64,000 nt of DNA from Colwellia sp. MB02u-6 (GTDB lineage Bacteria > Pseudomonadota > Gammaproteobacteria > Enterobacterales > Alteromonadaceae), in contig NZ_JACGVG010000038.1 of assembly GCF_014077095.1 (NCBI RefSeq), forward strand, positions 186,001 through 250,000, in the 5' to 3' direction. A program made the translations under genes and the position numbers. Under the pieces are notes generated by a model. The model was not told the DNA's origin, did not search any database, and saw only the letters and a program-made list of their open reading frames with translations. How positions within the stretch are numbered: the stretch's first letter is position 1; each line of letters starts with the position of its first letter. Shown piece by piece: positions 9,938 to 30,518 of this stretch.

Positions 9938-10936
9938 TTAATTTTTTTTGACTGATTGTCGTTCAATAAGTTCAGGAATAAACATGTTTATGATGTCTAA
10001 CTCTTTTTGCTTATAAACATTTTTCAGGATCCATTGAGTAGACATTTTCGCCATATCGTTAACTGGAAAATTAATAGTCGTTAATTGAGGGTAGAGATAC
10101 TCAGTGAAAAACGCATTATCAAAACCAATAAATGAACATTGTTCGGGGATTAACCATTTGTGATCTCTCGCTCCTCGCATGGCCCCGGAGGCCATCTCAT
10201 CATTTGAACAAGCAACAGCAGTAAATGTGGTTTTATGCTTGATGAGGTAATTGATACCATCTCGGCCACTTTTTGTTAAATAATCACCTTCATAGAGTAA
10301 ACTTTCTTTAAAGGAAATATTGGCTTCAGCTAATGCTTTTTTATGGCCAGTTAAGCGCTCAGTAGAATCTTGTTTTGTTAAAGGCCCAGATATATAAGCA
10401 ATCTCTTTATGCCCTTGTTCAATTAAATATTTTGCGGCTAAATAACCCCCTAGTTCGTTATCTAAATAAAAGCAATGGTCACTAATTTCTGAGATATTGC
10501 GGTTCAAGATAACAAAAGGGGTATTACCTTTACTTAATTTAATTAAGTAGTCATCTGAAATGGCGTCAACCAGTAAAATAAGTGCATCACATTTTCGATC
10601 AATTAAAAAATCTAAGCCATTTATTTCACTTTCTTCATCACTATGACCTGCAGTAATAACCGCATGTTTACCTGCCTTTCTGAGCTCTAATTCAACACTG
10701 CTTAACATGGCACCAAAAAAGGGACCATGGAGTTCAGAAACTAGTACACCAACACTGTTTGAACGATTGGAAGCTAATGATCGGGCAATGGTATTTGGGC
10801 GATAGTTTAACTCGTTCATTGCTGCCACGACTTTTTCTTTAGTTTTTTTACTGACATGTTCATGATCATTCAGTACGCGAGATACAGATGATAATGAGAC
10901 TCCCGCTAATGCGGAAACTTCGTATATAGTCGCCAT
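9938..10936 (-). CDS. LacI family transcriptional regulator of the beta-glucan locus
   Basis: A 332-residue LacI/GalR regulator. The helix-turn-helix is at the extreme N-terminus (TIYEVSALAGVSLSSVSRVLN) followed by the hinge helix region NTIARSLASNRSNSVGV, then a periplasmic-binding-protein-like sugar domain ending ELIERQSV. It faces the permease gene, and two palindromes near TGGAAGCGCTTCCA lie between them (11059, 11118). The same palindrome recurs upstream of the CBM lipoprotein, the TonB receptor and the GH1 gene. I infer that this protein binds these sites and is released by a glucose- or oligoglucoside-type inducer. The BglR-like regulons of Alteromonadales are the nearest known analogy. 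The effector cannot be read from sequence. Confidence 0.9.
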   Translation of the reverse strand: MATIYEVSALAGVSLSSVSRVLNDHEHVSKKTKEKVVAAMNELNYRPNTIARSLASNRSNSVGVLVSELHGPFFGAMLSSVELELRKAGKHAVITAGHSDEESEINGLDFLIDRKCDALILLVDAISDDYLIKLSKGNTPFVILNRNISEISDHCFYLDNELGGYLAAKYLIEQGHKEIAYISGPLTKQDSTERLTGHKKALAEANISFKESLLYEGDYLTKSGRDGINYLIKHKTTFTAVACSNDEMASGAMRGARDHKWLIPEQCSFIGFDNAFFTEYLYPQLTTINFPVNDMAKMSTQWILKNVYKQKELDIINMFIPELIERQSVKKN

Positions 10937-12513: not shown

Positions 12514-15096
12514 ATGTCTATTCAAATAAACTCACTTAAAAGCGTTGCTAAACCCTTTATGGGGATTGCTGTTGCCATGTCACTTTTTGCTTGTACTGAT
12601 AACGCTAACTCAGACATAGCTCAGGTTGACGTTGCCCCTTATGGCGAAAACAATATAGCTATTTGGCCGGTACTTGATATTGAAGTTAAAAAAGACAGTA
12701 ACGTCGAAACTAAAGTTGCCAAAATTCTAGCGACTATGACTTTAGAGCAAAAAGTTGCACAGATGATCCAACCTGAAATCCGAGACATTACTGTTGAAGA
12801 TATGCGTAAATATGGTTTTGGCTCATATTTAAATGGTGGTGGTTCTTTCCCTGATAATAATAAACATGCAACGCCTGCTGATTGGATAAAATTAGCTGAA
12901 GCGCTGTATCAAGCATCAATCGATGACTCGGTAGATGGGATAAATATTCCGACTATGTGGGGTACTGATGCAGTACATGGTCATAACAATGTGATTGGCG
13001 CAACATTATTCCCACATAACATTGGCTTAGGCGCGGCAAATAATGCTGAACTTATGGAAAATATAGCCAGTATAACGGCTAAAGAAGTGATGGTAACCGG
13101 TATTGATTGGGTGTTTGCTCCTACGGTTGCCGTTGTTAGAGATGATCGTTGGGGCAGAACTTATGAAGGTTACTCTGAAGACCCTGAAATAGTCCGCTTA
13201 TATTCGGCCGCTATTGTAAAAGGGCTTCAAGGCTCTGTAGACGATGACTTTTTAGGCGATACTCGCGTTATCAGCACGGTTAAGCACTTTATTGGTGATG
13301 GTGGCACAGAAGGTGGTGATGACCAAGGGGATAACTTAGACAGCGAAAGTGATCTTTTTAAACATCATGCCCAAGGTTATGTTGGTGGCTTAACGGCTGG
13401 CGCACAATCGGTAATGGCATCATTTAATAGCTTGCATGGGGCTAAAACGCATGGCAACAAGTATTTAATGACTGAGGTCTTAAAAGATCGTATGGGCTTT
13501 GATGGCTTTGTTGTTGGTGACTGGAACGGCCATGGCCAAGTCAAAGGCTGTACTAACGAAAGCTGTCCACAAGCAGTCAATGCGGGCTTAGACATTTATA
13601 TGGTGCCAACAGCTGCTTGGAAACCTTTGTATGAAAATACCATTAAACAAGTTAACAATGGTGAAATTAGCTTATCAAGAATAGATGATGCGGTTAGCCG
13701 TATTTTAAGAGTAAAAATACGCGCAGGTTTATTCACTAAACCCAGTCCAAAAAATCGTCCATTATCAGGTAAAACTGACTTAATTGGCTCAGCAGAACAT
13801 CGTTTAGTCGCTCGTCAAGCCGTACGTGAATCTTTAGTTTTGCTTAAAAATAAAGCTAATTTATTACCTTTAACGCCGAGTGCAAATGTATTAGTTGCAG
13901 GAGACGGCGCTGACAATATTGGTAAGCAGTCAGGGGGATGGAGTATTACTTGGCAAGGTACAGGTAACACTAACGCTGATTTTCCAGGTGGGTCTTCGAT
14001 TTATGACGGTATAGAGCAAGTTGTTAATGCTGCTGGCGGTAAAGTGCAATTAAGCTCAACAGGTGAGTTCACTGAAAAACCAGATGTTGCTATTGTTGTT
14101 TTTGGTGAGGAACCTTATGCCGAGGGCAATGGCGACTTAGATAACCTTGAGTATCAACGCGGTAATAAAACCGATTTAGCTTTACTCAAACGTTTAAAAG
14201 CACAAGGGATACCTGTTGTTTCTGTGTTCATTAGTGGACGGCCAATGTGGGTAAATGCGGAACTTAATGCGTCAAGTGCTTTTGTTGCCGCTTGGTTGCC
14301 GGGTTCAGAAGGCAATGGTATCGCTGACGTTTTGTTTAGTAAAGCGGATAACAGTTTACGTTATGACTTTAAGGGTAAGCTTTCATATTCTTGGCCTGCT
14401 AGTGCAGATCAAACATCGGTTAATCGATTTGATGAAAACTATCAACCTTTATTACCTTATGGTTTTGGTTTAACCTATCAGCAGCAAGATAATAAAAAAA
14501 TGACCATATTGTCTGATCAGTTAAGTGAAGTCTCTAAAATAGCTTCTGATGAGTTAGCCGCTTTTAAAATATTTGAATTAGCGGTTAAGCAGCCATGGAG
14601 TATTGCGTTGCAATCAGGTGAACAGTCATCTCCTGTTACTTCAAATACGCAGTCATTAGGGGCTATTACCTTGAGAACTATGGACAAAGTGGTACAAGAA
14701 GATGCTAGAACAATAATCTTTGATGGCAGTGAGCTAGCAAGTGTCAATATCTTTAGTAACTTTCCAGAAGATTTGCGGGCATATATCGAGGCTGACTCGG
14801 TATTAAGTTTTAGCGTGCGTTTAGAAACTACACCAGTAGCACCGATTAATTTAGCTATGAGTTGTGAAGGGGATTGCAAAGGCTCTCTTGATATCACCTC
14901 ATTGTTAATTAACCAGAGTTTAAATGAATGGCATAAAGTGACGATCGACTTGGCTTGCTTTAAAAAAGCAGGCACAGATTTTTCTAAAATTATGTCACCA
15001 TTTAACTTGTCTACCCAAGGTAAAGTTTCATTAAGCTTCGCTGATATAAACTTAACGCCACAAACTATTGATAAAGCAACAATGAGCTGTGATTAA
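12514..15096 (+). CDS. GH3 family exo-beta-glucanase/beta-glucosidase lipoprotein (ExoP-like)
   Basis: An 860-residue lipoprotein with lipobox SLFAC (Cys at residue 27). The GH3 N-terminal TIM barrel (about 70-400) shows the substrate-binding KHFIGDGG (257-264) and the nucleophile Asp at about 336 within GFDGFVVGDWNGH. The second alpha/beta domain follows (about 430-650), where the GGWSITWQGTGN and FGEEPYAEGNGD stretches are typical of ExoP-type exo-1,3/1,4-beta-glucanases; the latter should supply the acid/base Glu. The last about 190 residues form a C-terminal carbohydrate-binding ExoP domain. It should release glucose from beta-1,3/1,4 oligosaccharides in the periplasm or at the outer membrane. 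It is eight bases downstream of the permease and so is co-transcribed with it. Confidence 0.9.
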   Translation: MSIQINSLKSVAKPFMGIAVAMSLFACTDNANSDIAQVDVAPYGENNIAIWPVLDIEVKKDSNVETKVAKILATMTLEQKVAQMIQPEIRDITVEDMRKYGFGSYLNGGGSFPDNNKHATPADWIKLAEALYQASIDDSVDGINIPTMWGTDAVHGHNNVIGATLFPHNIGLGAANNAELMENIASITAKEVMVTGIDWVFAPTVAVVRDDRWGRTYEGYSEDPEIVRLYSAAIVKGLQGSVDDDFLGDTRVISTVKHFIGDGGTEGGDDQGDNLDSESDLFKHHAQGYVGGLTAGAQSVMASFNSLHGAKTHGNKYLMTEVLKDRMGFDGFVVGDWNGHGQVKGCTNESCPQAVNAGLDIYMVPTAAWKPLYENTIKQVNNGEISLSRIDDAVSRILRVKIRAGLFTKPSPKNRPLSGKTDLIGSAEHRLVARQAVRESLVLLKNKANLLPLTPSANVLVAGDGADNIGKQSGGWSITWQGTGNTNADFPGGSSIYDGIEQVVNAAGGKVQLSSTGEFTEKPDVAIVVFGEEPYAEGNGDLDNLEYQRGNKTDLALLKRLKAQGIPVVSVFISGRPMWVNAELNASSAFVAAWLPGSEGNGIADVLFSKADNSLRYDFKGKLSYSWPASADQTSVNRFDENYQPLLPYGFGLTYQQQDNKKMTILSDQLSEVSKIASDELAAFKIFELAVKQPWSIALQSGEQSSPVTSNTQSLGAITLRTMDKVVQEDARTIIFDGSELASVNIFSNFPEDLRAYIEADSVLSFSVRLETTPVAPINLAMSCEGDCKGSLDITSLLINQSLNEWHKVTIDLACFKKAGTDFSKIMSPFNLSTQGKVSLSFADINLTPQTIDKATMSCD

Positions 15097-15201: not shown

Positions 15202-16320
15202 ATGCAGCATTTAACATTATTACTCATAGCCTGTTCAATGACTTTGCTCGGATGTGGCGGTGAATCTGGTAACAACACGAGCACGACTAATATATCAACT
15301 ACGCCAGCTACAGATATATCTTCTGATCATGCGAGTGAAGAGAGTAAAGACCCAACAACTGCTTCTGTAGTGAATAATCAATGGCAGTTAATTTGGCAGG
15401 ATGAATTTAATGATAACAATATTGATTTAAATAAATGGAGTTTTGAGGTCAATTGTTTTGGTGGGGGTAATGATGAACAACAATGTTATACCGATCGAGA
15501 AGATAATGCTTTTATTGAACAAGGTATCTTGAAAATAGTGGCATTAAAAGAAAATTTTACTGGTCCTGCAGCACATGATGATGATACTAATTACAACCCT
15601 ATAAATACCCGCACTCTACCTTATACATCAGCAAGGTTGCGCAGCAAAAACAAAGGTGATTGGACTTTTGGACGCTTCGAAATTAGCGCTAAATTACCGC
15701 AAGGACAAGGCACCTGGCCAGCTATTTGGATGCTGCCTACTGACTGGGCTTATGGTGGATGGGCTGGCTCCGGTGAAATTGATATTATGGAGGCGGTGAA
15801 TTTAAAAACACAATCAGATGAAGCGGGTGCGAGCTCAGGGCAAGAAGAGTCACGTGTGCATGGCACGCTTCATTATGGCCGTGCCTGGCCTGAGAATGTT
15901 TATTCAGGTAAAGGATTTAACTTACCTGATGGTGTTAACCCGGCAGATGGTTTCCACGAATACGCCATTGAATGGCAAGCAGGGGAAATTCGTTGGTATG
16001 TCGATGATATTCATTTTGCTACACAGCGTGATACCGGCTGGTATAGCCAATATATGAATGATGAGGGCTTATTGATAAACGGTGAGGGTGGTGCACCTTT
16101 TGATCAAAAATTTCATTTATTATTAAATTTTGCTGTTGGGGGCAATTGGCCCGCTTCGGTTAACGACAAAGGTATTAATGACAGTGTGTTTCCACAATCA
16201 TTAGAAATAGATTATGTCCGAGTTTATGAATGCTCAGTGTCGCCTCTCACAGGTGCTGGCTGTGCAACAATCGGTGATGAAGCCGCTTTAATTGGTGGTA
16301 AGCAAGCACCGGCTCTGTAA
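15202..16320 (+). CDS. GH16 family beta-glucanase (laminarinase) lipoprotein
   Basis: A 372-residue lipoprotein: signal peptide with lipobox LLGC (Cys about 18), a low-complexity Ser/Thr linker to about 58, then one GH16 domain. The catalytic GSGEIDIMEAVN places the nucleophile Glu at about 192, the assisting Asp at 194 and the acid/base Glu at 197. The extra Met in EIDIME is typical of bacterial endo-1,3-beta-glucanases. WQDEFNDNNIDLNKW at the start and GGNWP near the end are also family marks. It should cut laminarin at the cell surface into oligosaccharides for the TonB receptor. An AAGGAC ribosome site sits upstream of the ATG. A strong terminator follows. Confidence 0.92.
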   Translation: MQHLTLLLIACSMTLLGCGGESGNNTSTTNISTTPATDISSDHASEESKDPTTASVVNNQWQLIWQDEFNDNNIDLNKWSFEVNCFGGGNDEQQCYTDREDNAFIEQGILKIVALKENFTGPAAHDDDTNYNPINTRTLPYTSARLRSKNKGDWTFGRFEISAKLPQGQGTWPAIWMLPTDWAYGGWAGSGEIDIMEAVNLKTQSDEAGASSGQEESRVHGTLHYGRAWPENVYSGKGFNLPDGVNPADGFHEYAIEWQAGEIRWYVDDIHFATQRDTGWYSQYMNDEGLLINGEGGAPFDQKFHLLLNFAVGGNWPASVNDKGINDSVFPQSLEIDYVRVYECSVSPLTGAGCATIGDEAALIGGKQAPAL

Positions 16321-17625: not shown

Positions 17626-18795
17626 TTACTGAGCAATACCTACAGTTATCTCGTCTAGAGATACGTCACCGACTTGAGCACCCATATCAAATAATACACG
17701 GCTATCGTCATCACCAAAACCTGTAGCAGGAACAACAACAAAATATGTCACCCATTCAGTCGTTATAGCAACAGACTCTGCAGTATTATTCCACGGGGCA
17801 TGGTTTAAACCAACACCAACAATAATATCACGAGCGACAGAAGCTTTTGCTTTAAACTCTACTACATAAATGGCATCAGGAATGATAGTCATAACTTGGC
17901 TTAAGTTAACATCATATGGGTTACCAGCAGTTGCTACATAAGCTTCGTAATAGCTTCCTACAGGAGCAGTTGTGGCAAAAATATCAGTGTCAGCAGAGTT
18001 GACAAGTGAGATGTTACGTAATGAAATATCTCCTGCAATTGCACCACCCATATCAAATATAGTACGACTATTATCATCACCCGCAGAAGCGGCTTCCATA
18101 AACGTATATGTATCCCATTCAGTTGTTAACTCAACTGTATGTGTGTTATTCGTCCATGGGTCATGAAATAAACCAAAACCAGCAGTCATAGGACGGGCTG
18201 TAGAGGCTTTAGCATCATAAGTTAGAGTATAAACTTCACCTGTAACTAAAGTTAATGGATGGCTAATTCCCGTATCATACACATTTGTCGTAGGCTCTGG
18301 AACAAGATTTTCATATACATACACACCGGGAGCGTCTGACCAGTCGGTAAGTCCAGCATCAAATGTACTATTTGTTAATAAGTTACCCGCGGTATCTGGC
18401 TTACCACCACTTCCTGCTGAAATAATGACATTCTCAGATGTAGTAAACATGCCATCTGTTACGTTTACGGTTACAGAACTAAGACCCTTATCACCTGATG
18501 CCGGAGTACCTGATAAAACACCGGTACTGGTATCAAAGTTTAACCAAGAACCATCTGGAAGAATTGCTGAGAAAGTTAATGCATCACCATCAGCATCGGT
18601 TGCTGTAAAGGTATGACTATATTCTTCCCCTACTCCAGCAGCTGTTCCAGCAGCGGCACTAGTAAACTCTGGAGCCGCAAATCTTGGTCCAATAGAGTCA
18701 CCATCTACTGGCTCCAAATCAGCACCACAGCCAGTAAGTGCAATAGCTAAAGCTAAAGTTGATAGCTTAATATTTAAATGTTTAATTTTGATCAT
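17626..18795 (-). CDS. Surface glycan-binding lipoprotein: cadherin-like domain plus two CBM4/9-like repeats
   Basis: A 389-residue lipoprotein with no catalytic motif. Signal peptide and lipobox IALTGC (Cys about 23). Residues about 43-130 form a He_PIG/cadherin-like domain (HTFTATDADGDALTF, then GVLSGTPASGDKG). Two related beta-sandwich repeats follow, about 140-265 and 270-389; each shows a conserved block: ARPMTAGFGLFHDPW against ARDIIVGVGLNHAPW, TTEWDTYTF against TTEWVTYFV, and DDNSRTIFDMG against DDDSRVLFDMG. The pattern is that of CBM4/9 modules, which bind beta-glucans including laminarin. I infer a surface binding protein feeding the TonB receptor. An operator-like site lies about 140 bp upstream of the start. 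Confidence 0.8.
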   Translation of the reverse strand: MIKIKHLNIKLSTLALAIALTGCGADLEPVDGDSIGPRFAAPEFTSAAAGTAAGVGEEYSHTFTATDADGDALTFSAILPDGSWLNFDTSTGVLSGTPASGDKGLSSVTVNVTDGMFTTSENVIISAGSGGKPDTAGNLLTNSTFDAGLTDWSDAPGVYVYENLVPEPTTNVYDTGISHPLTLVTGEVYTLTYDAKASTARPMTAGFGLFHDPWTNNTHTVELTTEWDTYTFMEAASAGDDNSRTIFDMGGAIAGDISLRNISLVNSADTDIFATTAPVGSYYEAYVATAGNPYDVNLSQVMTIIPDAIYVVEFKAKASVARDIIVGVGLNHAPWNNTAESVAITTEWVTYFVVVPATGFGDDDSRVLFDMGAQVGDVSLDEITVGIAQ

Positions 18796-19226: not shown

Positions 19227-20717
19227 CTATTTTACTTTTGCTTTACAATATTGCTCAATAAAATCTAAATGATGAGGCCAATGATCAACTTTACGCTTGA
19301 CGGTCAGCTTAATATTATCTAAAAATCTTTGTAATTCATTATCATCCATTAAATCAACAATAGGGTGATATTGTTCAGGCATTAGACCCTGTCCCATCAT
19401 TACTTGTACCCAAGATGTTTCTCCAAAAAGCTCTTCTTCTTTTTTGAATACATTGGCGCTTTCTTTAAATAACAACATACGGTGTTTTAACGTTTCAGGG
19501 ATATCCATATTGCTACAGTACCGCCAAAAAGGGGTGTCTTTACGATCGGTTAAATTATAATGTAAAATAATAAAGTCTTTAATACTGTCAACTTCGGTTT
19601 TAGTTTGTATATTAAACTCATCAATATTAGATTGTTTAATCCCTTGCGATGGAAACATCTGCATTAAGCGTATAATCGCTTTTTGAAATAAATGAATACC
19701 AGTAGATTCTAGTGGTTCAATAAAACCGGAAGATAAACCTATAGCAACACAGTTTTTATTCCAATGTTTACGACGAGTACCTGTTTTATATTTAATAACG
19801 CGAGGTTCATTTAGCAGTTCACCTTCAATATTATTTAATAAAGTTTTTGTAGCCTCTTCGTTAGACATGTATTTACTACAAAAAACAAATCCATTACCCG
19901 TTCGATTTTGCAAGGGGATTTTCCACTGCCAACCAGCATCTCTCGCAATAGAACGAGTATAAGGCACAGGTTTAGTAACAGTTTTAGTTTGTACCGCTAT
20001 AGCGCTATCACAAGGTAATACGTGTGACCAATCCTCATAGCCAGTATGTAGCGCTTGTTCAATTAACAAAGCTCTAGAACCAGTACAATCAATAAATAAG
20101 TCACCTTCAACTACTTTGCCGTTGGTTAACTCAAGAGCACTAATAAAACCATTATCTTTATCTAGAACAACATTATTAATGCGGCCTTCAATTCGCTTTA
20201 AACCGTGCTTTTCTGCTAGTTTTTGTAGAAAAACAGCATATAAACCAGCATCAAGGTGATAGGCATAGTTAGAGGCTTGATCTGCGTCTACGGCAAACTT
20301 TCCTTCTCTAGCGGCTAAGTGTTCAGGCACGTAATCGCCTATGTCTGAAACTATACCACGCTGTTTTCCCTTTAACCAAAAATGTTGAAAATCAGCCGCC
20401 CAGCAATTTTGACCTAAAAATCCAAAGGAGTGAATATAGTCTTTATTAACATCACGCCAATTTTCAAATGAAATACCCAACTTGAAAGTAGCATTCGTCG
20501 CTGCCATAAACTCTTGTTCATTAATGCCTAATAATCGGTGGAAAATATGCAAAGTAGGTATTGTCGCCTCACCAACTCCGACGGTAGGGATGTCATCAGA
20601 TTCAACAAGGACAAGGTCTAAATTCTTACCAAACAGCTTTGATAATGCCGCTGCTGTCATCCAGCCCGCAGTACCACCACCGGCAATAACAACTTTTTTT
20701 ATGGCTTTGTTATTCAT
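19227..20717 (-). CDS. Flavin-dependent tryptophan halogenase family protein (paralogue 1)
   Basis: A 496-residue FAD-dependent halogenase-type protein. Visible landmarks are the FAD loop AGGGTAGW (12-19), VGVGEATIPTL (46-56), the catalytic Lys at 79 in FKLGISFENW (the position of Lys79 in PrnA), the WxWxIP motif at 263-268 (GWQWKIP), and PLESTGIH at 335-342, containing the conserved Glu. All residues needed for halogenation are therefore present. Such proteins recur beside TonB receptors in Alteromonadales, Xanthomonadales and Caulobacterales; their in vivo substrate is unknown. It is the last gene of a four-gene minus-strand unit with a good AAGGAT ribosome site. No antibiotic-type biosynthetic genes are nearby. 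Confidence 0.9.
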   Translation of the reverse strand: MNNKAIKKVVIAGGGTAGWMTAAALSKLFGKNLDLVLVESDDIPTVGVGEATIPTLHIFHRLLGINEQEFMAATNATFKLGISFENWRDVNKDYIHSFGFLGQNCWAADFQHFWLKGKQRGIVSDIGDYVPEHLAAREGKFAVDADQASNYAYHLDAGLYAVFLQKLAEKHGLKRIEGRINNVVLDKDNGFISALELTNGKVVEGDLFIDCTGSRALLIEQALHTGYEDWSHVLPCDSAIAVQTKTVTKPVPYTRSIARDAGWQWKIPLQNRTGNGFVFCSKYMSNEEATKTLLNNIEGELLNEPRVIKYKTGTRRKHWNKNCVAIGLSSGFIEPLESTGIHLFQKAIIRLMQMFPSQGIKQSNIDEFNIQTKTEVDSIKDFIILHYNLTDRKDTPFWRYCSNMDIPETLKHRMLLFKESANVFKKEEELFGETSWVQVMMGQGLMPEQYHPIVDLMDDNELQRFLDNIKLTVKRKVDHWPHHLDFIEQYCKAKVK

Positions 20718-20783
20718 ATTTAAATTATCCTTACAAATATAATTATTAGTTTTAAAAAGATATTTTTAGTTTATATTTTTAGT

Positions 20784-21800
20784 TTATATTTTTAGTTTAT
20801 TAAGTAAGCCAGCCCTGATTTTTTTTGCTGAATTTACGTCTAATGGTTGAGATAGCATCCCTTTAACAAAATCAGGAATATGATCTAAATCGTTTTCTTG
20901 ATGATCAAAAATATAATAATCAAAAATAGCTTTCCATGCCTGTCTTTGTGCTGGAGGAAGATTTCTCAAACTTAATATCGCTAAGTTCAATGCATTTTCT
21001 GGTTGTCCCATAAACGCAGGACTGTCTCGCCACCAATGAGTTACCAGTACATTAAAAGCACTTAATGCTTTGACATGATGCCACCACATAGCCGGAAGAA
21101 ATAAGGCATCGCCAGCTTCCAACTCTGCAACTTGAGCGGCTTCTAATGCTTGTTTAAATTTAGGGAATTTTTTAAAATCAGGTTGTTCAAAATCAATTAA
21201 ACTAATTTCACGACCACCTGGTGACATTTCCATCGGGCCAACATATAGGTTAGCTATCTGCTCTGGTGGGAATAAAGTAAATCTTCTTTTACCTGCAACA
21301 CAACATGCGAGGTTATTTGGGAAGTCATAATGTGCGGCTATTTTACTTTGATTACCAATCCAAATACTGGTGAATGGTTTTAGATGGTCAATCGAAGCAT
21401 TATTTTCATCATTATAACCAGGAAGGCAAGCATTAATTTCTGTTGAGGCAACATAGATTGTAGGTGGTTTATTATCTGCAGCGTGTGCTAATAATTTATC
21501 TAAGACTATATTCAGATCAGCACGAATGTTTTTAAAGTTAAAACCACTCATATCATCATTGTAAAAAACACGTCCTTGATTTTCTGGTTCGCCATAAGCA
21601 CTAAATACAGGCTTATTATTATATAATTTACGTAAATAATTCGCCGAACTTTCAGGCGACTTTTTACTTTCAATCACCATCGGCCATTTATCACCAAAAC
21701 CCCTCAAAATAAGTGGTTGTGTTGATGATAAAACAAATTCAGGTATATCACCTGGTTGACAATTGGTTATCTCTTTAACTTTATTTGTTATTGCCAACAT
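20784..21800 (-). CDS. JmjC/cupin-8 family protein, putative Fe(II)/2-oxoglutarate oxygenase
   Basis: A 338-residue cupin-8 (JmjC-like) protein. The iron-binding triad is seen as H157-x-D159 in AAHYDFPNN and a His at 241 or 242 in FLPAMWWHHV. Lys171 in AGKRRFTLFPPEQ is in the position that binds the 2-oxoglutarate carboxylate in factor-inhibiting-HIF-type enzymes. Related proteins hydroxylate side chains of proteins or small molecules. The gene lies between the SapC gene and halogenase 1 in the same direction with gaps of about 50-70 bases, so it is part of the same unit. The substrate cannot be deduced. Confidence 0.87.
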   Translation of the reverse strand: MLAITNKVKEITNCQPGDIPEFVLSSTQPLILRGFGDKWPMVIESKKSPESSANYLRKLYNNKPVFSAYGEPENQGRVFYNDDMSGFNFKNIRADLNIVLDKLLAHAADNKPPTIYVASTEINACLPGYNDENNASIDHLKPFTSIWIGNQSKIAAHYDFPNNLACCVAGKRRFTLFPPEQIANLYVGPMEMSPGGREISLIDFEQPDFKKFPKFKQALEAAQVAELEAGDALFLPAMWWHHVKALSAFNVLVTHWWRDSPAFMGQPENALNLAILSLRNLPPAQRQAWKAIFDYYIFDHQENDLDHIPDFVKGMLSQPLDVNSAKKIRAGLLNKLKI

Positions 21801-21851
21801 TTGCAGATACCAAGTTTAAATTTATAATGAAAAAGGATGATACTAAAGGGA

Positions 21852-22580
21852 TTAAAGACCAAGTCTTGCATTTTTCTTACTAATTAATTTTCTAACATTT
21901 GCTTGTGATGCAATGGTCATATAGATTGCTTGTAAATATCCTTTTTTATGCAATAACTTTAAAATATCACTACTTAATTCAGCTAGTTTTTCTTCGTTAA
22001 TAGTATAAAAACCAAGCATTTGGTTTTTTGAGTGATCATTAAGAGTGATATCTAAAGTTACTGATTCTAATAATTGATGTTCATTTAAAGCATTGATAAA
22101 ATCATTACTATCGTTTAGCCCATGGTGAATGGCTTCAAGTAGATCTGCAACTTTATCTAAATAAGGACTACTGCCACCATGTTCTAAAAAGATAGATTCA
22201 CCTTGTTCTTGGTTAACACGGGGATTATCAAGATCAATATTCAACATTCTCTGTTGCTTTTCAATACCTCCTTCATTTAGTGCTTGTATACCGATTAAAA
22301 ACGGCTGTCTAGCAACCATTGCTGGAATATAATCCGCGGTCCATTTATCGTCAGAGAGGAATAAGTTCTCTTTATTTTCAAAACCAAATAAAGCAAGTGG
22401 AAAGAATTTACCTGTATCTGGATTCTTATTAAAAAAAATGGGGTAATAGGCTTGTACACTTTTAAATTCCATCGGAAAAGTTTGTGCATACCATAGGTTG
22501 TCACCGTAGGTGTCAGATCGTTCGGTGATTATTTTTAAGTTTTGGTGATCGATGTTGTTTAGTAAAACAGAATTTGTCAT
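21852..22580 (-). CDS. SapC family protein
   Basis: A 242-residue SapC family protein. The typical N-terminal pattern is seen (NSVLLNNIDHQNLKI, then FPMEFKSVQAYYPIFFNK and FFPLALFGFENKENLFL), with the C-terminal helical region VTLDITLNDHSKNQMLGFYTI. The name comes from an S-layer-linked protein of Campylobacter, which does not explain this gene. In Gram-negative marine and plant-associated bacteria SapC-like proteins regularly accompany halogenase and cupin genes next to TonB receptors. I chose ATG at 22580, served by GGAATT, over GTG at 22592. It has no signal peptide and is probably cytoplasmic. Confidence 0.85.
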   Translation of the reverse strand: MTNSVLLNNIDHQNLKIITERSDTYGDNLWYAQTFPMEFKSVQAYYPIFFNKNPDTGKFFPLALFGFENKENLFLSDDKWTADYIPAMVARQPFLIGIQALNEGGIEKQQRMLNIDLDNPRVNQEQGESIFLEHGGSSPYLDKVADLLEAIHHGLNDSNDFINALNEHQLLESVTLDITLNDHSKNQMLGFYTINEEKLAELSSDILKLLHKKGYLQAIYMTIASQANVRKLISKKNARLGL

Positions 22581-22643
22581 TTTTAATTCCACATATTGTT
22601 TACATTTATTTCAGTTAAAGAGAGTTACTGTATTTTTGTAACG

Positions 22644-24200
22644 CTAAATTTTGGGTAAACCATATTTTTTAATTTTGTTAATGATTTCACGGTTTGTTGG
22701 TAAAATAGATAAAAGTTTCTGTGTTTTTTTTATATTATCATTAAATAATTTATCTGCTTTGTCAGCATAACTCACCCTTTTTTTGTGTGCTAATGGCTCA
22801 GTGACGAAGTTCATACCATATAAAATGTATTGAAAACTAGCAGGTGGAAACATTTCTTCAGTGTGTGTTGCGTCATAATGGTAAGGTGGTTGATAACGCC
22901 ATAGGCTTATAAGTTGTTGTAAACTTTTAGGTATACTTTCTTCATTTTTATTATCTAGCCAATAAGCTGAATCAGTTCGCTGACTTAAGACATAATGTAA
23001 CTTTAAAAAATCAACTACGTTTCCCCAACGATGCAAAAATTTGTCATTAAAACGTTTGGCAATAATATCCATGGTCTGGCGATTCGCAGGCAACTGTTCA
23101 CTGATCATTTTTGCTGATAGTTCAACTAATGCTAAAGCAGAGGCTTCTAAGGGTTCAATGAAACCTGCAGCCAAACCAATTGCAACACAGTTTTTATGCC
23201 AAAACTTTTCTCTATGTCCTGGATTCAAAGGTATTCTTCGTATCATTACTGAATGAGCAGCATCTTTTCCCATTGAAGGGACTAGGTAATTACGTAATTC
23301 TTCTTCTGCTATATCATGTGATATATGTGCACTGGAATATGTATAGCCAACACCTCGTCGTGTTGGCAGTCCTATATCCCAAATCCAACCTGCGGTTTGG
23401 GCTGTAGATGAAGTAAATGATGCAATAGGACTATCACTATTCTCGTAAGGCACATGTACGGCCATTGCAGAATCATTAAATAAAATATGTTTTTTACTAA
23501 TAAAGGGAATTTTATAATGTTGAGCTAATAATAATGATGATGTCCCCGTGCAGTCGATAAACAGATCGCCGAATATATCACCTTGTTTTTTTGTGGTAAT
23601 TGAGGCTATATCAGCTGTTGCAGATGAATTTATTTTAGTGACATGATCAATAACGTGTTTTACACCTAATTTAACTGTGCAATGTTTTTGTAAAAACTGA
23701 CCAAATTTACCTGCATCTAAGTGGTAGCCATAATTGGCTACAAATGAATACTCAGCGGTCGTTATTTGTTTTGGCGCTAAACCGTAAGCACCTAAATGAC
23801 TTTGCTCAGAAACGGCATCGGCAAAACTAATTTTATCACTGAAGGGTTGCCAATATGATGAAAGATTTATCTCATTAAAACCATTTGGTAAGGTGAAAGG
23901 GTGGTAATAGTGCTCGTTAGCATTCGTCTTCCAGTTCGTAAACTTCGAACCTTGCTTAAAACTTGCATCACATTCTAATAAAAATTCAGTTTCAGAAATA
24001 CCCATTTTTTGTAATGTACTACGCATTGATGGCCAGGTACCTTCACCAACACCTATAGGTGCAACATCAGCTGATTCAACTAGTGTAATTTCTACCCCTG
24101 AATCTTGATTGGTAGCATGTTCGGCGGCGATAATACCCGCTGTTAGCCAGCCCGCAGAGCCACCACCAACAATTACTATTCTTTTTAATGGTTGATTCAT
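22644..24200 (-). CDS. Flavin-dependent tryptophan halogenase family protein (paralogue 2)
   Basis: A 518-residue paralogue of the halogenase at 19227. It has the FAD loop VGGGSAGW (11-18), VGEGTWPSM, the catalytic-position Lys at 82 (FKQGSKFTNW) and PLEASALAL with the conserved Glu near 352. The WxWxIP motif is altered to GWIWDIGLP at 271-279, with Gly in place of Pro, and PLESTGIH is altered to PLEASALA. The change marks a second subtype rather than a dead enzyme, since the Lys and Glu persist. It is the first gene of the cassette; a hairpin separates it from the TonB receptor upstream, so it may have its own promoter in the 24201-24370 gap. Confidence 0.9.
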   Translation of the reverse strand: MNQPLKRIVIVGGGSAGWLTAGIIAAEHATNQDSGVEITLVESADVAPIGVGEGTWPSMRSTLQKMGISETEFLLECDASFKQGSKFTNWKTNANEHYYHPFTLPNGFNEINLSSYWQPFSDKISFADAVSEQSHLGAYGLAPKQITTAEYSFVANYGYHLDAGKFGQFLQKHCTVKLGVKHVIDHVTKINSSATADIASITTKKQGDIFGDLFIDCTGTSSLLLAQHYKIPFISKKHILFNDSAMAVHVPYENSDSPIASFTSSTAQTAGWIWDIGLPTRRGVGYTYSSAHISHDIAEEELRNYLVPSMGKDAAHSVMIRRIPLNPGHREKFWHKNCVAIGLAAGFIEPLEASALALVELSAKMISEQLPANRQTMDIIAKRFNDKFLHRWGNVVDFLKLHYVLSQRTDSAYWLDNKNEESIPKSLQQLISLWRYQPPYHYDATHTEEMFPPASFQYILYGMNFVTEPLAHKKRVSYADKADKLFNDNIKKTQKLLSILPTNREIINKIKKYGLPKI

Positions 24201-24435: not shown

Positions 24436-27400
24436 TTAGAACGTATAACGAGCGCCTAAAGCAAAACGAGCACCTGTTTGGGTGTAATTTAATACTTCAT
24501 AGCTACTACGACCGCGTGTGCGTCTCTTTTCATCAGTAATGTTAATACCGTTGAAGAAAACAGTTAAGCCTTCAACTTGTGGCACATCATAATTTACCGC
24601 TAAATCAACTTGGCTGTACTTTTCTACATAAACTGGTGAAGCTCCTACATCCCCTTGGAAATGAGATGCTAGGTATTGATCACGCCAATTGTAAGCAATA
24701 CGTATAGAAAAACCATGCTTCTCGTAGAAACCTACCACGTTCGCCGTGTCACTAATGCCAGTTTCTGCGACTTGATCAGAATCATAGTTAACGCCATTAC
24801 TATTAATTGAGCTACCAATAGAGGCATTATCATACGAATTATCAGAGTTAACATAGGTATAGTTAACAATCGTACCAAAACCTGTATCGCCAAATAAATG
24901 TTGTACGGCAAATTCAACACCGTCAAAACCTGATTCTTCGGTAGAGTTAGCAAATGATGCAATATTAAATTGCACTAATGGATCAACCGGACGACCATTT
25001 ATTTCTACATTACCACCAACAACATTTACTGCTGGGTCATTAATGTTTTCAGCAATCCAATCGCGTTGAGCCGGACGATCGTTAGGGTCAATACCAGCTG
25101 CAAGAGCCTGTTGAACAAACGGACTTGTTAAAGCACCAGGGTTAGTAAGGTTATCTTGGGTATAAACTGATTCTGTTCGGATACTTTCGTTAGTAATATC
25201 TTTTTGGAAATAACCTAATGAAATATAGCTACCTTCGCCATAATACCATTCTGCCGACAGGTCGAAATTTTTAGCTTCAAGCGGTAATAAACCTGCATCA
25301 CCTGAGTTACCTGCACCAGGACTATTTACTCGAGCTAATCCACCTAATGATGTACCGCCAATCATTTGACCATAGCTTGGGCGACCTATCGTTTCACTGA
25401 AAGCGGCACGAAGTATAATATCGTCGGTTACTTCTATATTGAAGTTAATGCTTGGTAATACATGATCATATTTACCCGTTTTGGTCTGAAATTCAGTTCC
25501 ACCGGATAGAGTTATCGGTAATTCAGTATCGCCAACCCAAGTTGTTGCGTTAAAACCAGGAACATTTGATGTGGTTGCAACTTCTGTTTCTTCATAACGC
25601 ACACCTAAATGCACATCAAATGGCATGTCACCTATTTCACCCTCATAATTATACTGGAGGTATACTGCGGTCATTTCTTCTTTGGTATATTGATCGACAC
25701 CAAGAGCATAATCTGTTGAAGGACAAAAAGATGAGCCACAATCACCAATAATACCTGGCTGTATAGATAAAGTATCTTCAGCAATTTGTCTTACGTCAAG
25801 AAAGTCAAATTCAAAATAAGTATTTAAAATATCTGGTGCCCAATCAGTACCAGTAATGTCTACAAAATCACTGAAATTTCCACCACTTTCGTCAAACTGA
25901 TCTAAAATAGTTCTACGTGTAAAGTTTTCATCTCCAAATGATCCAGGTTCACCTTCACCACCCCAGTTATTACGTTGTACTGTTCGTCTTTGATCACGAT
26001 TTTCAGCTGTTGTCATGGCGATGCCAAAGTCTATACTGCCCGACTCTTCAAAAATAAAAGCACCATCAAACTGATGTTGCTCAATGTGAGAATGATCTTG
26101 CTCATTACTGAAAGAACTACCTGTTACTTGCATATCTGACGCCATTACCGCATTACCACCACGTACTGCAAGCGTAGGTAAAACACCCGTGAAGTCAGTA
26201 GCTGATGCCGTACGAATAAGTGCTCGTGCCGCTAAGTTGTTATTAGAGCCATACTGATTATTTGGTGTATTTTCAGCATCTGAATCGTGATAATCGTATG
26301 ATAGGCTCAAGCTATCGCTAACTTGCCAATCAAGGTTAAAACCTATTGAAGAGGTTTTGTCACGTATCCCATAATCACCAGAGCCCATCGCTAAATCTGT
26401 TGGATCATCATAAACTTCAGAATGTAATAATGGAGAGGCAACATTACCTGAGGTCCATACATCAACAGCATTTCCAGGAGAGGCATACCAAGCTGAAACA
26501 TTAGCTACTTGTGTATCTTGTTCTTTTTGGATGTAAGTATAATCCAATGTTGCCGTGATGTTTTCCATCGGGCTGTACTGCAATACTAATTGAGCGTTAG
26601 TTCTCTCACGTTGTACTTCTTCAAAAGTATAAAAAGTGGTTTGTGGAACAGAATAAACGTCTGGATTTTCAGCACGGTTAAATTGATCGCTTTGACCGTT
26701 TTCTATAGGACCAAAACGATTATTACCGTTGATGTCTTGACCATCAGGGTCATAACTTCTCCAACCAGTACTTACACCTGCTTGTTGATTACCACTTTCA
26801 CGTTCTGAATAACTGGCTGAAAGAGAAATACCAAAAGTATCATCGGCAAAGGTATTTGAATATAAACCTGACAACTCAGGAGTCGTACCACCTGTCTGTG
26901 CTGAGGTATCATTTAAAGCTTGTACACTAACAACGGCGTGCATGCCAGGGTTGTTTAGTGGTTTATTCGTTTTAATGTTAAGTGTTGCACCAATTCCACC
27001 CGTAGACATTTTTGCCATCGATGTTTTGTAAACTTCAACACCACTGATGCCTTCTGCTGCAACGTTTGAGAAGTCAAAAGAGCGATCACCTGTTGTATTA
27101 GGCATTTGACGGCCATTTAACAAGATTAAGTTTCGGTCGGCACTAAAACCACGAACACTTACTTTACTGCCCTCACCATTAGAGCGGTCAATTGAAACAC
27201 CAGTAATACGTTGTAATGATTCTGCTAAGTTAGAGTCTGGGAATTTACCTATATCTTCCGCATTAATTGCATCCACAATACCACTTGCAGAGCGCTTAAT
27301 ATCCATTGATTTGATCATACTGCTACGGATCCCCGTAACTTCGATCACTTCAGTTTTATTGTTTGTAACTTCTTCGGCAACAGCAAAAACGGGCGTTATT

Positions 27401-27468
27401 GCCGTTACGCCTAAAATTATAGATAAACTTGTAGCAAGTTGAGTTTTTTTAAAAGTTGAATTCTTCAT
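24436..27468 (-). CDS. TonB-dependent receptor for glucan oligosaccharides
   Basis: A 1010-residue outer-membrane receptor. A signal peptide ends near residue 31 (PVFAVAEE), then a TonB-box-like EVIEVTGIR, the plug (GKFPDSNLAESLQRITGVSIDR, then VSVRGFSADRNLILLNGRQMP) and a 22-strand barrel ending in ARFALGARYTF with the terminal Phe used for outer-membrane assembly. Sequence type fits the Xanthomonas/Caulobacter TonB receptor class for plant and algal sugars. Two perfect or near-perfect operators lie upstream, so it is the strongest target of the LacI-type regulator. There is no SusD partner, as usual outside Bacteroidetes; the CBM lipoprotein may fill that role. Confidence 0.92.
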   Translation of the reverse strand: MKNSTFKKTQLATSLSIILGVTAITPVFAVAEEVTNNKTEVIEVTGIRSSMIKSMDIKRSASGIVDAINAEDIGKFPDSNLAESLQRITGVSIDRSNGEGSKVSVRGFSADRNLILLNGRQMPNTTGDRSFDFSNVAAEGISGVEVYKTSMAKMSTGGIGATLNIKTNKPLNNPGMHAVVSVQALNDTSAQTGGTTPELSGLYSNTFADDTFGISLSASYSERESGNQQAGVSTGWRSYDPDGQDINGNNRFGPIENGQSDQFNRAENPDVYSVPQTTFYTFEEVQRERTNAQLVLQYSPMENITATLDYTYIQKEQDTQVANVSAWYASPGNAVDVWTSGNVASPLLHSEVYDDPTDLAMGSGDYGIRDKTSSIGFNLDWQVSDSLSLSYDYHDSDAENTPNNQYGSNNNLAARALIRTASATDFTGVLPTLAVRGGNAVMASDMQVTGSSFSNEQDHSHIEQHQFDGAFIFEESGSIDFGIAMTTAENRDQRRTVQRNNWGGEGEPGSFGDENFTRRTILDQFDESGGNFSDFVDITGTDWAPDILNTYFEFDFLDVRQIAEDTLSIQPGIIGDCGSSFCPSTDYALGVDQYTKEEMTAVYLQYNYEGEIGDMPFDVHLGVRYEETEVATTSNVPGFNATTWVGDTELPITLSGGTEFQTKTGKYDHVLPSINFNIEVTDDIILRAAFSETIGRPSYGQMIGGTSLGGLARVNSPGAGNSGDAGLLPLEAKNFDLSAEWYYGEGSYISLGYFQKDITNESIRTESVYTQDNLTNPGALTSPFVQQALAAGIDPNDRPAQRDWIAENINDPAVNVVGGNVEINGRPVDPLVQFNIASFANSTEESGFDGVEFAVQHLFGDTGFGTIVNYTYVNSDNSYDNASIGSSINSNGVNYDSDQVAETGISDTANVVGFYEKHGFSIRIAYNWRDQYLASHFQGDVGASPVYVEKYSQVDLAVNYDVPQVEGLTVFFNGINITDEKRRTRGRSSYEVLNYTQTGARFALGARYTF

Positions 27469-27770: not shown

Positions 27771-29099
27771 CTAACTTGGTGTACTTTTTAAAGCTTGGTG
27801 AATAAACTGTACTTTCTTTGCATCAAGTATGTACCAGCGCATTACCCAGGCAACTAATATCGAACCTACAGCAGGAAAAATAGTGAAAGCGGCTAATATG
27901 CCTTGTTGCGTGGTAGTGCTTTGTTCTGTATCAGCTTGGTAGCCATAATATGCTAACAACCAACCCGCTAATGCACCGCCAATGGCAACGCCAAGTTTGA
28001 TGAAAAAAACGATAGCTGAATAAACCATGCCGGTTATTCTAACGCCAGTTTTCCAGTGTCCATAATCGATGGTATCAGCCATTTTAGCCCAAAGTAAGGG
28101 GGTAGCCATCTGCAGGAAAAAACTCCAAAGAAAGAATAAAGTGAAGGCCATAACTGTTTGTTCACTGCCAACAAAATAACTGATAATACAAATAAAAGCA
28201 GCGATTGATTGTAAACAGATATAGGCTTTAATTTTACATACTTTTTTAGATAGTGGTAACGCCAGTGCACAACCTAGAATGCTACCTATCATTCCTAAAG
28301 TCATAAACAAGGTGATCAGGTCAGCGCGACCTAAATAATATTTCACATAATAAACGGCTAGTGTGCCGCGCAGTACTTGGCCACTTAATAACAATAATCC
28401 AGCTAAGCAAAGAATTCGCCATTGATCATTTTTCCATAAGGCAGATAAATCTTCTTTAAAGCTTGATTTTTGATCTTTTGGTGGGCTGACTCTTTCCTTA
28501 GTACCGGCAAAACAAAGCAGAAAAAGCATTAAGCCTAGCAAGCTCATGGCTATCATAGTGTACTGATAGCCTTGTGCTTTATCTCCAGCACCAAACCACT
28601 CTACTAATGGCATAGTGCCTGCAGCAACGATTAGACCACCTAACATACCAAAAACAAATCGATATGATTGTACTGATACGCGTTCTTCAGGGTCAGCGGT
28701 AAGTACACCACCTAGCGCTGAATAAGGAATATTTATCGCAGTATAAGCGATCATTAACAAGGTATAAGTAGCAAATGCATAAACGATTTTACCATTTTCA
28801 GATAAATCAAAGGTGGTAAAAGCTAAAATACTGATCAGGCAAAAAGGCAGGGCTAGCCATAATAAATAAGGCCTGAATTGTCCCCACTTAGTTTTCGTTC
28901 GATCAGCCATTGCCCCCATTAAGGGATCAGTAATTGCATCAAATATTCTAACAACAAGAAAAAGAGTGCCAACAAGTGCAGGAGAAAGACCAACAACATC
29001 GGTATAATAAATAAGTAAAAACATCATCACGGTTTGGAAGATGATATTACTGGCTGTGTCGCCCAAACCGTAAGCTATTTTTTCTTTAATTTTAAGCAT
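27771..29099 (-). CDS. GPH family (MelB-like) glycoside:cation symporter
   Basis: A 442-residue inner-membrane carrier with 12 predicted membrane segments. The MelB/GPH signatures are visible: YGLGDTASNIIFQ near residue 10, then RIFDAITDPLMGAMADRTKTKWGQFRPYLLW at residues about 51-81 (cation-binding Asp pair region) and PLLWAKMADTIDYGHWKTGVR later. GPH carriers import oligosides such as melibiose, cellobiose or laminaribiose with Na+ or H+. The GH1 gene lies 66 bases upstream in the same direction, so imported disaccharide can be hydrolysed inside the cell. The ribosome site is AAGAGA. Confidence 0.9.
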   Translation of the reverse strand: MLKIKEKIAYGLGDTASNIIFQTVMMFLLIYYTDVVGLSPALVGTLFLVVRIFDAITDPLMGAMADRTKTKWGQFRPYLLWLALPFCLISILAFTTFDLSENGKIVYAFATYTLLMIAYTAINIPYSALGGVLTADPEERVSVQSYRFVFGMLGGLIVAAGTMPLVEWFGAGDKAQGYQYTMIAMSLLGLMLFLLCFAGTKERVSPPKDQKSSFKEDLSALWKNDQWRILCLAGLLLLSGQVLRGTLAVYYVKYYLGRADLITLFMTLGMIGSILGCALALPLSKKVCKIKAYICLQSIAAFICIISYFVGSEQTVMAFTLFFLWSFFLQMATPLLWAKMADTIDYGHWKTGVRITGMVYSAIVFFIKLGVAIGGALAGWLLAYYGYQADTEQSTTTQQGILAAFTIFPAVGSILVAWVMRWYILDAKKVQFIHQALKSTPS

Positions 29100-29165: not shown

Positions 29166-30518
29166 TTACCTATTTGATAAATAGTTGCTATTTCGTTGAT
29201 GGATTAAATCACGATAGGCATAACCACTGGCTTTTATTGTTCTTTCTTGGCTTTGATAATCGACATAGACAATACCAAACCTTTTTAAATAGCCTTCAGC
29301 CCATTCAAAATTATCCATTAAACTCCAAGCAAAGTAACCTCTGATGTCGACACCGGATTCAATAGCTGTATTTACCGCATTAAGGTGGCTTTGGTAATAA
29401 GCCACTCGGTGAGCATCTTCTACTTTGCCATCTTTGATGTTGTCAGGCATTGCGGCACCATTTTCAGTGATATAAATAGGAGGTAAGGTGTATTTGGCAT
29501 TTAAAGAAATCAATAAATCAGAAAACCCTGATGGATAAATTTCCCAACCCATATCTGTTAATGCAACATCTTTAAGGGTAATTTGAGCGAATATTTCATC
29601 TTTATCAGCTTGATATATTGCACGTGTATAATAATTAATACCTAAAAAATCAACAGATTCTGCAATGATGTCCATATCACCTGCAATAATATTAGGATGC
29701 TGTGATAATGGTAGTTGCGCAAGTATTTCAGGATATTGAGCATCAAAGATAGGCTTTATATACCATTGATTAAAATAATCATCGGCGAACTGGGCTGCTG
29801 CTATATCCGCTGGGCTTTGGGAAGCAGGGTAGCTAGGGCTAAAATTAAGTACTATGCCATTAAGTGTGTTTGGGCTTAATTTTTTAAGTGATTGCATCGC
29901 TAAACCATGAGCAAGTAATAAATGATGAGCTGCCTTTTTGCCAAACTCTTTACCTTTAATACCTGGTGCATGAATGCCAATTTCATAGCCTAAATAAGCG
30001 CTGCAAAAAGGCTCATTTAACGTCGCATACGAATGTACTCTATTGCCAAATGCTTTAATCACTATTTCTGTATATTTTTGAAATTCATAAGCCGTTTCTC
30101 TGTTTAACCAACCGCCTTTATCTTCAAGGTGTTGGGGTAAATCCCAGTGATAAAGCGTAACAAAGGATTTAATGTTTTTCTCAACTAATTTATCTAATAA
30201 AGCAATATAAAATGCTACACCTGCAGCATTGATACTGCCATCTTCATTAACAACTCTTCCCCACGAAATAGATAAACGATAAGCATCAACGCCGAGCGAT
30301 TCAATCATTTCGATGTCTTGAGGCCATCTATGGTAATGATCACAGGCAACGTCTCCATTTGAACCATCGACAATACTATTTTCTAAAGAGCAAAATGTAT
30401 CCCAGATACAAGGTAATCGTTGCTTGATACCTCCCTCGATTTGGAATGAGGCAGTAGCAACACCATAAATAAAATCTGTTGAATTCATTTTTGAGTTATA
30501 AGGTAATGTCAATTTCAT
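29166..30518 (-). CDS. GH1 family beta-glucosidase, cytoplasmic
   Basis: A 450-residue GH1 enzyme without signal peptide. The acid/base Glu lies at 169 (YATLNEPF) and the nucleophile Glu at 352 (YITENGAA). Other family marks are FIYGVATASFQIEGG at the start, WDLPQHLEDKGGW and AWSLMDNFEWAEGY near the end, where Glu and Trp bind the non-reducing glucose. It should split beta-linked glucose disaccharides brought in by the GPH carrier. Translation may start at residue 1 or at Met11 (MNSTDFIYG); no ribosome site settles this. It is the first gene of the GH1-GPH unit, with an operator about 85 bp upstream. Confidence 0.92.
   Translation of the reverse strand: MKLTLPYNSKMNSTDFIYGVATASFQIEGGIKQRLPCIWDTFCSLENSIVDGSNGDVACDHYHRWPQDIEMIESLGVDAYRLSISWGRVVNEDGSINAAGVAFYIALLDKLVEKNIKSFVTLYHWDLPQHLEDKGGWLNRETAYEFQKYTEIVIKAFGNRVHSYATLNEPFCSAYLGYEIGIHAPGIKGKEFGKKAAHHLLLAHGLAMQSLKKLSPNTLNGIVLNFSPSYPASQSPADIAAAQFADDYFNQWYIKPIFDAQYPEILAQLPLSQHPNIIAGDMDIIAESVDFLGINYYTRAIYQADKDEIFAQITLKDVALTDMGWEIYPSGFSDLLISLNAKYTLPPIYITENGAAMPDNIKDGKVEDAHRVAYYQSHLNAVNTAIESGVDIRGYFAWSLMDNFEWAEGYLKRFGIVYVDYQSQERTIKASGYAYRDLIHQRNSNYLSNR

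Follow-up and report, generated by a model that had tools for sequence, protein, structure and literature searches.

A stretch of 64,000 nucleotides from Colwellia sp. MB02u-6 (contig NZ_JACGVG010000038.1, positions 186,001 to 250,000), referred to here as the window, contains a gene for a TonB-dependent receptor (TBDT) followed by genes for two predicted flavin-dependent halogenases, HalII and HalI, a SapC family protein and a Cupin_8 protein, in the order TBDT-HalII-SapC-Cupin_8-HalI (Table 1). An earlier note on this DNA had described four same-strand genes behind a TonB receptor, namely two halogenase paralogues, a cupin-8 protein with an intact iron triad and a SapC protein. The open reading frames (ORFs), the Pfam matches and the triad (H157, D159 and H241) all bear this out, every ORF lying at its exact position between 19227 and 24200 on the minus strand. 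As to the flanks, the receptor is confirmed by its TIGR01782 score of 604.9 bits, but the supposed carbohydrate-binding module (CBM) lipoprotein on the other side matches only He_PIG/Ig domains in Pfam and no CBM family. The gaps calculated from the coordinates are 235 bp between the receptor and HalII, 51 bp on either side of SapC, 66 bp between the cupin and HalI, and 431 bp between HalI and the lipoprotein gene. The true start of SapC is likely the ATG four codons inside the ORF. On inspection of the N-termini no signal peptide was seen in the four set proteins, while the receptor seems to have one. An AlphaFold2 (AF2) model of the receptor, with a predicted local distance difference test score (pLDDT) of 86.3, has a fold that matches solved TBDTs. 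Promoter and terminator scans gave counts within one standard deviation of those in shuffled sequence.

Table 1. The cassette, its candidate sites and its neighbours in the window. Pfam figures are whole-protein bits against the cut-off.
Feature	Position	Strand	Evidence
TonB-dependent receptor (TBDT), TIGR01782, head of cassette	24436..27468	-	TIGR01782 TonB-Xanth-Caul 604.9 bits, cut-off 310
HalII, predicted flavin-dependent halogenase type II, 518 aa	22644..24200	-	PF04820 Trp_halogenase 386.6 bits, cut-off 21
SapC family protein	21852..22592	-	PF07277 239 bits, cut-off 28.9
Cupin_8/JmjC-like Fe(II) oxygenase	20784..21800	-	PF13621 226.9 bits, cut-off 27.4
HalI, predicted flavin-dependent halogenase type I, 496 aa	19227..20717	-	PF04820 630.9 bits, cut-off 21
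Trp502 codon (Trp502-Gly503), candidate HalI site	25963..25965	-	loop Trp invariant in receptor group
Trp327 codon, candidate only	26488..26490	-	conserved among SapC-linked receptors
Lipoprotein-like protein, Ig (He_PIG) domain, downstream of HalI, outside conserved set	17626..18795	-	Pfam
MFS_2 sugar transporter	27771..29099	-	PF13347 354.5 bits
GH1 beta-glucosidase	29166..30518	-	TIGR03356 597 bits, cut-off 478.5
GH3 + Exop_C glycosidase	12514..15096	+	Pfam
GH16 glycosidase	15202..16320	+	Pfam
LacI-type regulator of locus	9938..10936	-	

The set is a conserved unit that accompanies the TIGR01782 receptor family and is not particular to beta-glucan. In an even sample of 150 genomes spread over the Pseudomonadota, with halogenases counted at 140 bits or more, 15 genomes had halogenases (60 genes in 41 clusters) and 19 had TIGR01782 above the cut-off; both were present in 13 (Fisher p 1.4e-12, without regard to phylogeny). 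These loci were annotated with profiles built from members in the Colwellia genome, and the clusters were grouped by hand. A TBDT lies within 3 kb of 34 of the 41 clusters by hand count, the receptor of the first L156 cluster being placed by the coordinates of the TIGR01782 scan. A second sample, of 80 loci from named genomes, was drawn by similarity to the receptor alignment and is hence biased to window-like receptors; L190 and L228, in which the receptor frame is broken in two, were dropped. At least one set gene follows the receptor in 71 of the 78 loci scored, a halogenase in 63, SapC in 61 and Cupin_8 in 55. SapC, Cupin_8 and a halogenase occur together behind the receptor in 49, and all four genes in 27. 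The order TBDT-(HalII)-SapC-Cupin_8-HalI(-DUF6445) recurs in the named alpha-, beta- and gammaproteobacteria, and the hosts include Shewanella, Thalassotalea, Colwellia, Pseudoalteromonas, Xanthomonas, Stenotrophomonas, Duganella, Massilia, Sphingomonas and Caulobacter. In the control rows of the family scans Caulobacter vibrioides matches all four families scanned, scored without regard to adjacency. The recurrence beside TonB receptors anticipated in the earlier note thus holds, and extends to Sphingomonadales and to betaproteobacteria (Massilia, Duganella). Rare co-occurrence, named beforehand as grounds for giving up the idea of a unit, did not materialise in this survey, in which the set co-occurs widely.

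Plasmids gave a similar association. Twenty-one regions, chosen by us from 67 matches listed, were read; all are proteobacterial (Streptomyces, Burkholderia and Acinetobacter were among the matches left out), and some unannotated records were read with our own profiles. In every one of the 19 regions with a halogenase, a TBDT is found no more than 2 kb from it. L286 and L290 each carry an annotated receptor that our profile missed, and these two receptors were left out. Neighbours in the plasmid loci include GH3/GH16, GH13/GH97, GH32/amylosucrase, GH95 or fucosidase, GH43 and galactosidase genes. Set members therefore adjoin genes for the use of glucan, starch, fructan, fucoside, xylan and galactoside, several of these loci carrying HalI alone or HalII-SapC. 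A tally of 107 proteins neighbouring 31 cassette loci has MFS, LacI, GH3, GH16 and GH43 among the 25 families shown of 158, and no aromatic pathway, assembly-line or export genes among those 25. The receptor, MFS, LacI and glycoside hydrolases are shared with the carbohydrate utilisation loci with TonB-dependent transporter (CUT/PUL); a term search of the main text of two Xanthomonas papers on these loci gave no halogenase, SapC, Pass1 or cupin.

The Colwellia genome itself has seven strong halogenases (386-631 bits; one weak match of 28 bits was set aside) and six TIGR01782 receptors above the cut-off. Each of the five highest-scoring receptors adjoins one or more halogenases, and all seven strong halogenases are located there. 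Besides the window cassette, the variants are TBDT-SapC-Cupin_8-HalI-HalII on C34; TBDT-HalII-SapC-DUF6445, also on C34, behind two genes that on inspection resemble a sigma/anti-sigma pair; TBDT-HalII-SapC on C31, close to apparent galactose genes (inspection); and TBDT-HalI on C25, next to a pullulanase. A fifth SapC stands alone (L019:9721-10497) beside S-adenosylmethionine decarboxylase and DUF416 genes.

HalI and HalII are 32% identical, and are thus two types rather than a recent duplicate. Among solved structures HalI is closest to Xcc4156 (6y1w, 623.3 bits), followed by 9luq and BrvH (6frl), and it is closer to the loop-less Xcc4156 than to the free-tryptophan halogenases PrnA, RebH and PyrH. 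HalII is closest to 2pyx (646.6 bits), then 9ltb (433.5 bits) and 9lu2 (419.6 bits). An alignment of Xcc4156 over 510 residues with the HalI of cassette L179, from Xanthomonas arboricola, reaches 1024.9 bits, which indicates that Xcc4156 is very probably a cassette enzyme itself. The catalytic Lys and Glu are present in HalI (Lys79, Glu337) and in HalII, the Glu presumably at the position of Glu346 in PrnA. Each of the two residues is found in all 57 type II halogenases and in 101 of the 106 of type I, those without being L066 and four paralogues from arrays. Of the W-x-W-x-I-P motif of flavin-dependent halogenases HalI has WQWKIP, whereas HalII has WIWDIG, a W-x-W-D-I-G form, and also differs from HalI in having E-A-S for E-S-T. 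The Trp_halogenase paralogues lacking both catalytic residues (L151:8994-10481, L152:9041-10528, L153:7481-9214 and L159:10535-12031) each belong to an array that also holds two or three intact halogenases and lies beside a TBDT, and are possible pseudo-halogenase partners.

Xcc4156 and BrvH refuse free tryptophan; the active site is open, no native substrate is given for either, and a peptide has been put forward as conceivable for enzymes of this type (PMC7336383; PMC5945002). Xcc4156 is without the substrate-binding loop of the free-tryptophan halogenases (PMC7336383). Neither paper mentions TonB, and the BrvH paper does not mention SapC (PMC5945002).

The HxD...H iron triad of the cupin is kept in 65 of 65 aligned cassette cupins. 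The nearest solved relatives, with alignment over the catalytic part, are FIH and JMJD5, which are protein hydroxylases. They share the triad, but the likeness is weak (67 bits for FIH) and the genomic context different; by this likeness the cupin is a putative protein hydroxylase. QhpG and LodB are flavoproteins that act on a Trp of a partner protein. They offer a precedent for such a way of working only, both window halogenases retaining the catalytic Lys, and membership of HalI in either family was rejected on NCBIfam scores well below the cut-offs (30.4 of 240 and 22.7 of 400 bits).

The AF2 model of SapC (pLDDT 96.8) found no fold match in the PDB with E <= 0.001, and its sequence no PDB match with E <= 1. 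SapC occurs in 60 of the 150 genomes of the even sample; fragments (G069:C164, G089:C407, G097:C62) and L026, a clipped locus in which no SapC frame was found, were dropped. Around 30 of the 98 SapC genes that stand outside cassettes, no family occurs in more than 5 of 103 neighbouring proteins. Giant surface-type ORFs rich in Ser/Thr/Gly/Asn/Asp, defined by composition cut-offs of our own choice, are in excess near these 98 genes, 10 of 12 lying within 3 kb (binomial p 0.001). They were seen at L033, L039, L062, L073, L091, L096, L098, L101, L102 and L118, and also at L049 and L051. Four such giant neighbours were scanned: one has RTX repeats (L051), one autotransporter repeats (L039), one other repeats, and one no Pfam match. 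SapC ORFs of 546-653 residues, with the SapC domain on the N-terminal side, occur at L024, L027-L031 and L033; in the long proteins of L027 and L028 the domain is followed by a run of hydrophobic residues and an extended tail of low complexity.

The set varies together with its receptor. Across 55 cassettes, receptor distances correlate with those of HalI (r 0.83), SapC (0.78) and Cupin_8 (0.77), with permutation maxima of 0.13-0.15 for these pairs. HalI, HalII, SapC and the cupin of the window share 57-73% identity with their counterparts in a Thalassotalea loyana cassette (L172), compared to 33-52% with those in a sister cassette of the Colwellia genome (L016). In the receptor tree the full set is found in one clade, HalI alone (one or two copies) in a second, and halogenase arrays in a third.

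From the conserved order behind the receptor, the many sugar loci, the co-variation with the receptor and the intact catalytic residues, we propose that the cassette may be dedicated to the receptor polypeptide, which it would tailor oxidatively in the cytoplasm before export; we put the probability at about 0.5. Since set members stand beside receptors for many sugars, the target may be the receptor itself rather than the imported food. Of the two targets offered in the earlier note, a shared one on the receptor gains indirect support only. The set is tied to a receptor family rather than to the glucan locus. The other, an aromatic compound borne by laminarin, is set aside because set members follow receptors for starch, fructan, fucoside, xylan and galactoside, also in soil and plant bacteria.

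Since the set proteins appear to be without signal peptides, the enzymes would work in the cytoplasm on the unfolded receptor. HalI, with FADH2, O2 and halide, would brominate or chlorinate an exposed tryptophan, for which the surface-loop Trp502-Gly503 is the best candidate, and HalII would act on a second aromatic residue. No flavin reductase lies in the cassette, and FADH2 would therefore come from a general one; there are two in the genome, neither on the contig of the window. The FIH-like cupin would hydroxylate a side chain. The separate fold of SapC and the occurrence of other members beside giant surface-type ORFs suggest a role on an exported chain, which SapC would recognise or present. 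Altered aromatics in the carbohydrate-binding vestibule could tune binding or protect the receptor. Protein halogenation by the set is itself a prediction from sequence. That sugar receptors are both halogenated and hydroxylated at vestibule aromatics, HalI acting on the loop Trp and HalII perhaps on Trp327, with a hydroxyl added by the cupin and SapC as the chain-recognising adaptor, is a bolder picture that we offer tentatively and consider less likely than not. If true, it would be a dedicated post-translational halogenation system for an outer-membrane transporter, present in several copies per genome, each fitted to its receptor. To our knowledge there is no precedent for such a system.

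The candidate site was sought among 148 receptors, of which 113 were grouped by hand after the fact and 35 left out; receptors with under 6-6.5 kb downstream were excluded from the residue tests. A loop Trp is invariant in five of five HalI-linked groups: 12/12 (followed by Gly in 12), 8/8 (Gly in 7), 20/20 (Gly in 17), 6/6 (Gly in 6) and 30/30 (Gly in 28). An invariant Trp-Gly was found in none of the five groups that, but for the HalI-linked L232, are without adjacent HalI. In the AF2 model Trp502 is located where strand 477-500 meets the long loop region 501-590; the loop Trp of the HalI-only clade sits in an earlier loop. The Trp327 position is W in 73 of 74 SapC-linked receptors compared to 14 of 30 other labelled receptors, phylogeny not being corrected for. 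When receptors were scanned for columns associated with HalI, HalII, SapC or Cupin_8, many columns associated, and cassette types largely track clades of the receptor tree. Trp-Gly anywhere after residue 150 gives a weak contrast (80 of 84 HalI-linked receptors against 36 of 52 others, some of the latter labelled unlinked from about 3 kb of flank).

Several observations weigh against a set devoted to the receptor. The co-variation of receptor and set is partly species descent, and the link between Trp-Gly and HalI is post hoc; a tree-aware pair test of that link, with nine supported contrasts and low power, was not significant. No TBDT was found within 3 kb of 7 of the 41 halogenase clusters (L066, L105, L162, L169, the second L170 cluster, L271 and L272). 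Most SapC genes, 98 of 113 annotated loci, stand outside cassettes, 15 being within them. The HalI-linked receptors L161, L198, L208, L217, L222, L224 and L232 lack the loop Trp-Gly, and of fresh HalI-linked plasmid receptors 12 of 16 have a Trp-Gly (8 of 11 in the scan after residue 150 and 4 of 5 in the aligned loop). A prediction written beforehand for three linked receptors was borne out for Trp in all three but for Trp-Gly in only two. The unlinked receptors L280 and L283 retain the motif without HalI within 6 kb, and the written prediction of its absence failed in both. The loop Trp may also be a plain sugar-binding residue.

There is a halogenase match elsewhere on the L280 plasmid. The L283 plasmid is absent from the 68 records of the plasmid scan, which covered plasmids only and has two Sphingobium records, neither of them that plasmid. 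The sister receptors L253 and L263 have lost the PxxWG loop motif, and each differs at 5 of 90 columns invariant in 17 linked receptors. This looked like co-loss with HalI, an interpretation rejected when L280 and L283 were found to keep the motif without HalI nearby. No PF04820 match occurs in the L253 genome (G090); the L263 genome (G094) has a halogenase elsewhere. Six receptors without an adjacent cassette gene (L182, L221, L235, L243, L244 and L247) all belong to genomes with 2 to 9 halogenases elsewhere, so that action in trans cannot be judged from unlinked receptors.

Flavin halogenases and Fe(II) oxygenases commonly have small molecules as substrates, and the target of the set might be a small aromatic compound taken up along with the sugar or made in response to it, such as a phenolic decoration or a halogenated signal. 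Xcc4156 and BrvH both accept free indoles for halogenation in vitro (PMC7336383; PMC5945002), although BrvH shows little activity on indole and its authors question whether this is the natural substrate (PMC5945002). We consider a small-molecule target unlikely, given the range of receptors with set members, from starch, fructan, fucoside, xylan and galactoside to beta-glucan loci, and the lack of an aromatic pathway among the neighbour families shown. Nor would a generic small-molecule pathway be expected to need a diverged set for each receptor, such as the diverged enzyme copies that accompany the receptors of the Colwellia genome. The excess of giant surface-type ORFs near SapC genes outside cassettes would fit a target other than the receptor, an exported protein or peptide encoded in the locus, tailored in the manner of peptide natural products with the receptor as a partner on the exporter or importer side, and MibH is a precedent for the halogenation of peptide-bound Trp (named in PMC5945002). 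The receptor is, however, the partner retained in most halogenase loci, and no precursor peptide gene was recognised in the window cassette, where minus-strand ORFs in the two larger gaps are only 22-46 residues long; we judge this explanation quite improbable.

Joint function itself might be lacking, the enzymes being unrelated passengers co-regulated within sugar operons. Set members are indeed lost in many combinations, but the retention of order and catalytic residues over three classes makes such hitchhiking very unlikely. Halogenases are typical of antibiotic pathways, and those of the set could produce, close to the receptor, hypohalous acid or a halogenated antibiotic, for competition or defence when sugar is plentiful. 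A role of this kind was guessed for Colwellia halogenase transcripts in a 2024 paper (PMC11337851). It appears to us the least probable of these explanations, as the conserved set we modelled is without an assembly-line or export gene, none is found among the neighbour families shown, and enzyme distances track those of the receptor.

No published description of the cassette was found in literature searches, which covered open-licence papers, partly by the title and the start of the abstract of those listed. Nothing was found that joins SapC with halogenase, tryptophan halogenase with polysaccharide utilization, or bromotryptophan with outer membrane protein, or that combines three of SapC, tryptophan halogenase, TonB-dependent receptor and cupin; a search on tryptophan halogenase with TonB-dependent receptors gave nothing on the cassette, judged in part by title. 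Studies of 2018-2020 left the native substrate of the Xcc4156 and BrvH halogenases open; their tie to one receptor family, together with SapC and an FIH-like cupin, points to concrete targets, and mass spectrometry of a single outer-membrane protein could now give the answer. If marine and plant bacteria carry a new modification on their nutrient receptors, this would matter for carbohydrate uptake, for phage and bacteriocin entry and for annotation; if tailoring of the receptor is true, many genes annotated as tryptophan halogenases would not be natural-product genes.

In the window an MFS gene also stands beside the LacI, GH3 and GH16 genes, and the minus-strand GH1, MFS_2, receptor and cassette genes come after these. 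DUF6445 is a recurrent extra member of the set (L017:14512-15222 and 10 of 124 receptor cassettes); it was not seen in the window cassette, yet is present in the nearest relatives, L088 and L171-L173. In L183, L192 and L214, SapC-Cupin_8 follows the receptor and no halogenase was found in the locus. At L105:8215-11305, a locus in which no receptor was found, HalII-SapC-DUF6445 is followed by two genes that on inspection are sigma/anti-sigma-like.

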